From Desulfobacterales bacterium (GTDB lineage: Bacteria > Desulfobacterota > Desulfobacteria > Desulfobacterales > JARGFK01), in contig JARGFK010000032.1 in NCBI GenBank assembly GCA_029211065.1, positions 1 through 41,642 on the forward strand: a stretch of 41,642 bases of DNA, read 5' to 3'. The notes under the pieces were generated by a model. It was not told the origin of the DNA, made no database searches, and was given only the letters and a program-made list of their open reading frames with translations. Made by a program: the position numbers and the translations under genes. Of the stretch, positions 34,973 to 37,101 are shown one piece after another (positions within the stretch are counted from its first letter, which is position 1; the number at the start of each line of letters is the position of its first letter).

Positions 34973-35306
34973 ATGGAAACATACTACACCCCGGATGATC
35001 TTCCAAAGTTTGAACAAATCGGCAAAGATGCCCCTGAACTGGCAAAAAAATTTTTTGACTATTACCAGGCCGTTTTTTCCGAGGGCGAACTGACCGAAAG
35101 AGAAAAAGCCCTGATCGCCCTTGCCGTTGCCCACGCGGTTCAGTGCCCCTACTGCATCGACGCTTACACCCAGACCTGCCTGGAAAAAGGTTCGAATCCA
35201 GCAGAAATGACCGAAGCGGTCCATGTGGCCGTTGCCATCCGCGGGGGGGGCATCTCTGGTCCACGGGGTTCAAATGCGAAATATTATTGAAAAAGTTTCT
35301 TTGTGA
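34973..35306 (+). CDS. AhpD-like (CMD family) protein with a frameshift in a G8 tract
   Basis: This is a carboxymuconolactone-decarboxylase/AhpD-fold protein with the redox pair Cys-Pro-Tyr-Cys (CPYC, about residue 58) in HAVQCPYCIDAYTQ. As written, translation ends at 35290 with a non-family tail (GGGISGPRGSNAKYY). If one G of the eight-G run at 35243-35250 is removed, the frame reads GGASLVHGVQMRNIIEKVSL and stops at 35306, which is the normal family ending (110 aa). Either a sequencing error, a true mutation or a slippery tract is involved. AhpD-like proteins of this type commonly sit next to arsS and are called arsenosugar biosynthesis-associated peroxidase-like. ArsS starts 28 bases after the restored stop. 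Confidence 0.85.
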
Positions 35307-35334: not shown

Positions 35335-36342
35335 ATGCGCCCAGAACTTGCCAACCGCGAGCCGACGACTTCCAGGGAGGAGCGGCTCAGCATTCCGACT
35401 TTTTACCAGACGCTTTTAAAGCATAGGCTCAAACTGGTCAAAGACGCCGTCTCTACGCTTCAAATCAACGTCGGCCTGCTGTGCAACCAGTCCTGCCGGC
35501 ATTGCCATCTGGAAGCCGGTGCCGGTCGCAGCGAAATCATGTCCGCCCGGACGATGGATCAGGTCTTTGCTTTGGCGCGCACGGGCGACTTTAAAACCAT
35601 CGACATCACCGGCGGCGCACCTGAAATGCACCCGCAAATTGATGATTTTAACGAGCGCCTGACGCCCCACGCTCCCCGCATGATCTTGCGGTCAAACCTG
35701 ACGGCCCTTGCCCGGAAGGGACCGTCCCTGATGACCCTTTTAAAAGACAACGCCGTGATCATTACCGCCTCGCTGCCCTCCTTAAATGAGGTTCAGTCCG
35801 AAACCGTCCGGGGCGGGGGGACCTTTCTTTCCGGCATTGCTACGCTTAAAAAGCTCAACCGCCTGGGCTATGGACAACCGGAATCGGGGCTTGAACTCAA
35901 TCTGGTGTCAAACCCGGCCGGGGCATTTTTACCCCCGCCCCAGGCCGGACTTGAAAAACGCTTTCACACGGTCCTCGCGCAAAAATATGGCATTGCTTTC
36001 AACAATCTGTTCAGCTTTGCCAATGTGCCTTTGGGACGATACCGCCGCTGGCTGATTCAATCCAACAATTTCGATGCGTATATCAACAAATTGGCAGCGG
36101 CCTTTAACCCCTGCACGGTTCCCGGCCTCATGTGCCGGACCATGCTGTCGGTCTCATGGGACGGGTACCTGTATGATTGTGATTTTAACCAGGCGGCCGG
36201 GCTTCCCCTGGAAAACCATCCCTCCCACATTTCAGCAATGACCCCGCCGATCCCCGCCGGCAGGTCCATTGCTGCGGGATATCATTGCTACACCTGCACG
36301 GCCGGCTCCGGTTTTACCTGAGGGGGCGCCATTGCGACCTGA
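35335..36342 (+). CDS. arsS: ArsS-type radical SAM protein, predicted selenoprotein
   Basis: This radical SAM/Cys-rich protein is of the family named arsenosugar biosynthesis radical SAM (seleno)protein ArsS. The 4Fe-4S motif is C-x3-C-x2-C at Cys50, Cys54 and Cys57 (NQSCRHCHLEAGAGR). The C-terminal Cys-rich domain includes PCTVPGLMCR, YDCDFNQ and HCYTCTAGSG. A conventional stop (TGA) falls at 36319-36321, right where the family has the ending Ser-Ser-Cys/Sec-Gly-Gly. Reading this TGA as selenocysteine gives Sec329 followed by Gly-Gly-Ala-Ile-Ala-Thr and a second TGA at 36340. A hairpin follows. The start ATG is preceded by a weak AGGAAA. It is co-oriented with the AhpD-like gene. The exact substrate is inferred from the family. 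Confidence 0.85.
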
Positions 36343-36347
36343 GGTCG
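36335..36347 (+). promoter_or_regulatory. Candidate bacterial SECIS hairpin
   Basis: CGACC-TGA-GGTCG forms a 5-bp stem 13 bases after the in-frame TGA, placing a GGTC-bearing apical region at about the distance seen in bacterial SECIS elements. An alternative fold (GACC / GGTC with an 8-base loop) is possible. The stem is short, so this is suggestive, not proven. Confidence 0.5.
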
Positions 36348-36514
36348 GGTCTGGAGAGCTGCTTGAATCTGATAGATCGTAAACAAAATGAAATCATTTT
36401 AACTTTTATTTGAATACAAGGATGGAATGTATTATCTTTTTCCAATATGAAAGCCTGAAGTTATCCGCATAAAAGTTGTGAATATTAATATATTTATCAT
36501 GAAAGGAACCCGTT

Positions 36515-36769
36515 ATGGCTGAAAAACCCGTAAAGGTCTATTCACTAAGCACCTGCGGCCACTGCAGGGAGGCCAAGAAATTTTTAGGCGACTGTGAAAT
36601 CAAATATGAGTTTGTCGATGTCGACAAGCTCCAGGGCGAAGAGCGGGCCGCCATCCTGCAGGATGTCAAAAATTTTAACCCCCGCTGCTCTTTCCCTACC
36701 ATCATTATCGGCGACAAAGTGATCGTCGGATACAAGGAAGCTGAAATCAAGGAGGCGCTGGGACTCTAA
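36515..36769 (+). CDS. Glutaredoxin-like (thioredoxin-fold) protein
   Basis: This 84-aa glutaredoxin-fold protein has an N-terminal redox motif Cys-Gly-His-Cys (in LSTCGHCREAKKFL). The cis-Pro is in RCSFPTIIIGDKVIVGYKEAEI. An AAAGGA ribosome-binding site precedes the ATG. The stop overlaps the ATG of the ferredoxin:thioredoxin reductase gene by one base (TAATG), so both proteins are made from one message. The likely role is to receive electrons from the reductase and reduce target disulfides. Confidence 0.93.
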   Translation: MAEKPVKVYSLSTCGHCREAKKFLGDCEIKYEFVDVDKLQGEERAAILQDVKNFNPRCSFPTIIIGDKVIVGYKEAEIKEALGL

Positions 36770-37101
36770 TGGATACGCAACAGCTGTATGAAATGTTGAA
36801 AAAGGTCCAGGAACCCAAGGGATTCTTTTTCAATAATGACATGGAGAAGGTCTTTGAACTGCTCCAGGGCCTGCTGGTCAACAAAGAACGCTATGGTTTC
36901 ATGGTTTGCCCCTGCCGGCTGGCATCCGGTGACCGCGAAAAAGACCGGGATATTATCTGCCCCTGTGAATATCGAACCCCGGATGTTAAAGAATACGGCA
37001 CCTGCTATTGCAGTCTCTATGTTTCAAAGGAATGGAACGAAGGCAAAATCCCCCATGAATACGTGCCGGAAAGAAGACCGCCTGAAAAAATGTTTTTATA
37101 G
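36769..37101 (+). CDS. Ferredoxin:thioredoxin reductase catalytic subunit
   Basis: This 110-aa protein carries the FTR catalytic-chain motifs CPCR (near residue 47), CPCEYR (64) and CYC (78), which bind the 4Fe-4S cluster and form the active-site disulfide. It transfers electrons from ferredoxin to thioredoxin-type disulfides. No variable (alpha) subunit is present, as in other anaerobes. Translational coupling to the glutaredoxin-like gene indicates that this protein is its partner. The Cys pattern is complete. Confidence 0.94.
   Translation: MDTQQLYEMLKKVQEPKGFFFNNDMEKVFELLQGLLVNKERYGFMVCPCRLASGDREKDRDIICPCEYRTPDVKEYGTCYCSLYVSKEWNEGKIPHEYVPERRPPEKMFL

Follow-up and report, generated by a model that had tools for sequence, protein, structure and literature searches.

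The question raised by this locus is where its arsS gene ends. In the window, by which we mean the whole stretch of 41,642 nucleotides analysed here, an ATG at 35335 opens a reading frame whose first in-frame TGA lies at 36319-36321 and whose second lies at 36340-36342. The original prediction held that the first TGA is read as selenocysteine (Sec), and that the C-terminus continues as CYTCTAGSGFT-U-GGAIAT up to the second stop; the sequence is just as described, and reading through adds Sec and six residues. The parts of the gene are as follows.

35335..36342, + strand: arsS coding sequence of 335 residues up to the second TGA, its internal UGA predicted to be decoded as Sec (TIGR04167, Pfam, AlphaFold2)
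35482..35505, + strand: radical SAM motif CX3CX2C (Cys50, Cys54, Cys57), invariant in 40 aligned homologues
36286..36297, + strand: C-terminal CYTC (Cys318, Cys321), both Cys invariant in the 40 homologues
36319..36321, + strand: apparent stop and putative Sec UGA codon, residue 329, a TGA/Cys column in homologues
36322..36339, + strand: GGAIAT tail after the UGA, with silent codon differences from the paralogue C28

The TIGR04167 profile, named 'arsenosugar biosynthesis radical SAM (seleno)protein ArsS', matches the window protein with 365.5 bits, against a cut-off of 300, from position 2 to position 303 of its 303 positions. The match covers residues 34-333 of the read-through protein, and so extends beyond the TGA at 36319. 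Pfam places a Radical_SAM domain and a DUF3641 domain in the same protein. The traits of ArsS are present as well: that is, the CX3CX2C motif, whose three cysteines we take to be the ligands of the SAM-binding 4Fe-4S cluster, and a C-terminal CxxC followed by Cys or Sec. In a 40-row alignment, to whose homologues the window protein is 37-62% identical, Cys267 and Cys282 are also invariant, and the column that contains the UGA is Cys or Sec without exception.

To characterise this column at the level of codons, we drew homologues from a TIGR04167 search that took in the window's genome and 145 others of its order, 146 in all, and from a comparison of the window protein with GTDB species genomes. 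The pattern used to collect C-terminal tails left the UGA column open to any stop codon as well as to Cys, Ser, Thr and Ala. Among the tails of 126 loci, some of which are one record met twice, the codon is TGA in 71, TGC in 35 and TGT in 20; TAA and TAG occur at this column in none of the 126, though the pattern admitted any stop. Some members of the family had been said to have Cys at this point. They make up 55 of the 126 tails, and these read on, so that it is not the case that the homologues all end at the TGA.

If the codons past the TGA are translated, their differences should be mostly silent. The window gene and its paralogue C28, from the same genome, both encode GGAIAT after the TGA; four of the six codons differ (GGG GGC GCC ATT in the window versus GGT GGA GCT ATC in C28), all of them silently. 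Across 66 distinct Sec tails, where two tails differ by one base within any of the first four codons past the TGA, the difference is synonymous in 86% of cases, compared with an expectation of 29% derived from the codons; the counts are pairwise and not independent. Because the gap between them is so large, despite the non-independence of the pairs, we consider this strong evidence, at the level of the codons, for translation of the stretch beyond the TGA.

Decoding of UGA as Sec in bacteria is associated with a hairpin in the message, and the window has a candidate that overlaps the second stop.

36336..36351, + strand: hairpin of the bacterial SECIS type, stem GACCUG/CGGGUC around the apical loop AGGU, whose second base is G (folding, homologues, covariation)
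36340..36342, + strand: natural stop TGA, of which U and G close the 5' arm of the stem and A opens the loop

Positions 36336-36341 pair with 36346-36351, giving six base pairs of which one is G-U, and the loop AGGU (36342-36345) sits 20 nt past the UGA. The bSECIS model calls for a loop of 3-9 nt, a stem of 4-16 bp, a G at loop position 1 or 2, a spacing of 16-37 nt and an energy limit of -7.5 kcal/mol (PMC13188914). The window hairpin is within the rules for loop (4), stem (6), G (position 2) and spacing (20), and the 6-bp hairpin alone, at -7.3 kcal/mol, is slightly short of the energy limit; longer stretches fold at -11.9 (36322-36360) and -16.7 kcal/mol (36319-36365). Such a hairpin is not rare. 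It is equalled in 140 of 5000 dinucleotide shuffles (2.8%), and 49 of the 1559 TGA triplets of the window (3.1%) have one as good, a number that falls to 19 of 1559 when spacing and loop are fixed to the type found in homologues. Scanned as a whole at the Rfam gathering level, the window gave a tRNA only, and a permissive Rfam scan of 36280-36420 returned no match; the hairpin was therefore tested by comparison. By itself it is weak evidence, whereas the comparison is strong evidence.

The commonest form among the Sec homologues places the loop AGUU 19-21 nt past the UGA, on a CCUG/CAGG stem lengthened by at least one pair. A hairpin whose stem has 5 bp or more and whose 3-5 nt loop carries G at its first or second position, at a similar spacing, is found in 63 of 71 Sec homologues versus none of 55 Cys homologues, and the mean energy of the best hairpin is -7.2 kcal/mol in the former and -0.35 kcal/mol in the latter. 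In the 26 gap-free sequences, 90.4% of the stem cells are paired, the stem covariation score is 0.267 compared with 0.108 in shuffles (none of 500 as high), and changes on both sides of the stem occupy 13 cells against 5.6 expected (1 of 500). Since the 3' arm of these 26 sequences lies outside the coding region, codon constraint does not explain its match to the 5' arm. Thus the downstream hairpin of the original prediction stands as real, shared and covarying in Sec homologues and absent in Cys homologues; its apex, given there as GGTC, is drawn slightly differently here, with the loop AGGU.

The selenium machinery was located by family searches of the genome, and selA, selB, selC and selD, for which a search had been proposed, are all present: a tRNA-Sec (selC) with anticodon UCA (77.2 bits), SelB (391.6 bits), SelA (610 bits) and three genes for a probable Sec-containing SelD, with one in-frame TGA each (C7:48811-49737, C26:15131-16048, C37:30071-30988). 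The estimated contamination is 4.29%, and a mixed bin may therefore lie behind the three selD. There are also three arsS genes (window, C28 and C136), all with TGA at the UGA column. The third, C136:8856-9776, is 40% identical and of the UGA-Sec type, and its hairpin, GCAGGCG-GUU-CGCCUGC, has a perfect 7-bp stem and lies within the coding frame.

The genes on either side of arsS include a companion.

34973..35290, + strand: AhpD/CMD-like companion (TIGR04169), upstream of arsS, 162.9 bits, residues 2-92 only

A relative lies beside arsS at 65 of 71 Sec loci and 46 of 55 Cys loci, and is therefore a standing partner of arsS. In the window this gene shifts frame at eight consecutive G (35243-35250) close to its 3' end and loses its last part; the shift may reflect true decay or a mistake in sequencing or assembly at the homopolymer. 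The companion ahead of the C28 arsS, at about 27722-27900 of C28, is a remnant whose first half is missing. Both identified copies of the partner gene thus look damaged, and the three arsS of the genome are intact. Directly 3' of arsS, at 36515-37101, are a glutaredoxin-like and an FtrB-like gene, both with Cys, whose neighbours in NCBIfam include selenoprotein families. Since the model nearest to it in NCBIfam is a double selenoprotein, the FtrB-like gene was examined as a possible selenoprotein; it was rejected, as it scores below that model's cut-off, has Cys and contains no in-frame TGA.

Could the TGA at 36319 nevertheless be an ordinary stop, giving an ArsS of 328 residues with a frame that is open beyond it by chance? 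A standard gene call does terminate there, open stretches of six codons commonly arise by chance, and the hairpin alone has a chance level of about 3%. Yet the family profile and the 55 Cys homologues run through the column, coding is conserved past the TGA, the homologues have no TAA or TAG at that point, and the genome has the full Sec machinery; we regard an ordinary stop as very improbable. The Cys of other homologues might suggest, alternatively, that readthrough or reassignment puts a residue other than Sec, for example Trp or Cys, at the UGA. This we find scarcely credible, given the presence of tRNA-Sec (UCA), SelA, SelB and SelD and a covarying hairpin that goes with TGA and not with Cys; TGA is, moreover, the terminal stop in the same genes, and therefore UGA is not generally reassigned.

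It is also conceivable that the window arsS is decaying, so that its motif is inherited and the gene is out of use. The frameshift in the neighbouring AhpD-like gene, the remnant beside C28 and the existence of two more arsS in the genome would all fit such a history. The arsS frame itself, however, is intact with every invariant residue kept, its tail differs from that of C28 only silently, and the run of G could reflect an error in sequencing or assembly, so that we judge decay to be improbable. The selenoprotein reading of the original prediction is upheld by the TGA/Cys column, the conserved tail, the hairpin and the Sec machinery, from which we infer that 35335-36342 very probably encodes an ArsS with a DUF3641 C-terminal domain whose UGA at 36319 is decoded as Sec.

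For the selenoprotein, the sequence of events would be as follows. SelB with Sec-tRNA(Sec) would bind the hairpin at 36336-36351, and the ribosome would insert Sec at UGA 36319, add six residues and terminate at UGA 36340, inside the hairpin. Sec329 would then stand in place of the Cys of other ArsS and join Cys318 and Cys321 in a flexible C-terminal tail, where the three may form a thiol/selenol redox group or an As(III)-binding group. As had been claimed, the standard gene call is seven residues short, losing Sec and GGAIAT beyond 36319; reading through corrects the annotation, and the Sec that is dropped probably serves in catalysis or metal binding.

A maximum-likelihood tree of 117 proteins requires six changes between Sec and Cys, all of them forced by well-supported branches. 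On this tree Sec and Cys appear to have been exchanged at least six times, which is a small new detail. The window and C28 copies fall in a Sec clade of 61 rows, among whose members two (L097, L102) have Cys. The C136 copy branches with a Cys protein of Nitrospirota, and the genome therefore holds Sec-ArsS of two separate lineages. Sec-ArsS with TGA occurs also in Gordonibacter (Actinomycetota) and in one Eubacteriales genome (L128, L134, L137, L145); their position among Cys homologues suggests separate changes from Cys to Sec. The family thus offers a data set on why arsenic enzymes recruit selenium, combining a Sec versus Cys column, these repeated exchanges and paralogues within one genome.

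The placement of the second stop is a feature of the Sec tails as well. A terminal TGA lies six codons past Sec in 49 of the 71, usually within the hairpin; a second small new detail is that most of the window's clade has its natural stop built into the SECIS hairpin. In the Cys homologues the terminal stop is mostly TAA or TAG. One might speculate that in this Desulfobacterota-dominated ArsS clade the overlap of the stop with a SECIS hairpin of the CCUGAGUUCAGG type was selected and is not mere economy, in which case a single RNA element may serve both to recode the first UGA and to affect how translation terminates at the second, seven codons on; we consider this rather unlikely.

As to function, adenosylation of arsenic by radical SAM enzymes is part of oxo-arsenosugar biosynthesis (PMC12159101, citing Cheng et al. 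2021), and the Synechocystis enzyme SsArsS acts with SsArsM in arsenosugar biosynthesis (PMC8552651). By homology, the window ArsS would carry out the step of arsenosugar formation that makes the C-As bond, in which dimethylated arsenite receives a 5'-deoxyadenosyl group. An ArsM is encoded in the genome (328 bits, cut-off 263), on a contig other than that of the window arsS.

How does this protein compare with known systems? Its AlphaFold2 model has a mean pLDDT of 91.3, with the last residues below 50, and Foldseek assigns to it a radical SAM fold nearest to SkfB and SuiB. A search of the PDB sequences turned up matches to the radical SAM core only, and no solved structure of an ArsS. The best Foldseek match is SkfB (6efn), a RiPP maturase of the radical SAM/SPASM type, with a TM of 0.56 by query length; the radical SAM core is common to the two, and they are 15% identical. 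The C-terminal domain and the substrate of SkfB are unlike those of ArsS, and SkfB is not known to contain Sec. Cyanobacterial ArsS probably has Cys at the position of Sec in the window ArsS, as would be expected of the Cys-type family. It (SsArsS in PMC8552651; Cheng et al. 2021, cited in PMC12159101) is a radical SAM enzyme named as a partner of ArsM in arsenosugar biosynthesis. As for the family itself, TIGR04167 was known to include selenoproteins, as had been stated, and is tabulated as a predicted selenoprotein family with the example AAR34688.1 (PMC9312934, PMC13188914). Because the family is already so listed, the window ArsS is no new discovery; it is a well-supported ordinary member of a recognised selenoprotein family, and the picture of that family is unchanged by it. 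The window ArsS shares with this family the C-terminal CxxC...Cys/Sec and a predicted UGA-coded Sec near the C-terminus, and the window protein, at most 62% identical to the aligned homologues, differs from known TIGR04167 ArsS in its individual sequence only.
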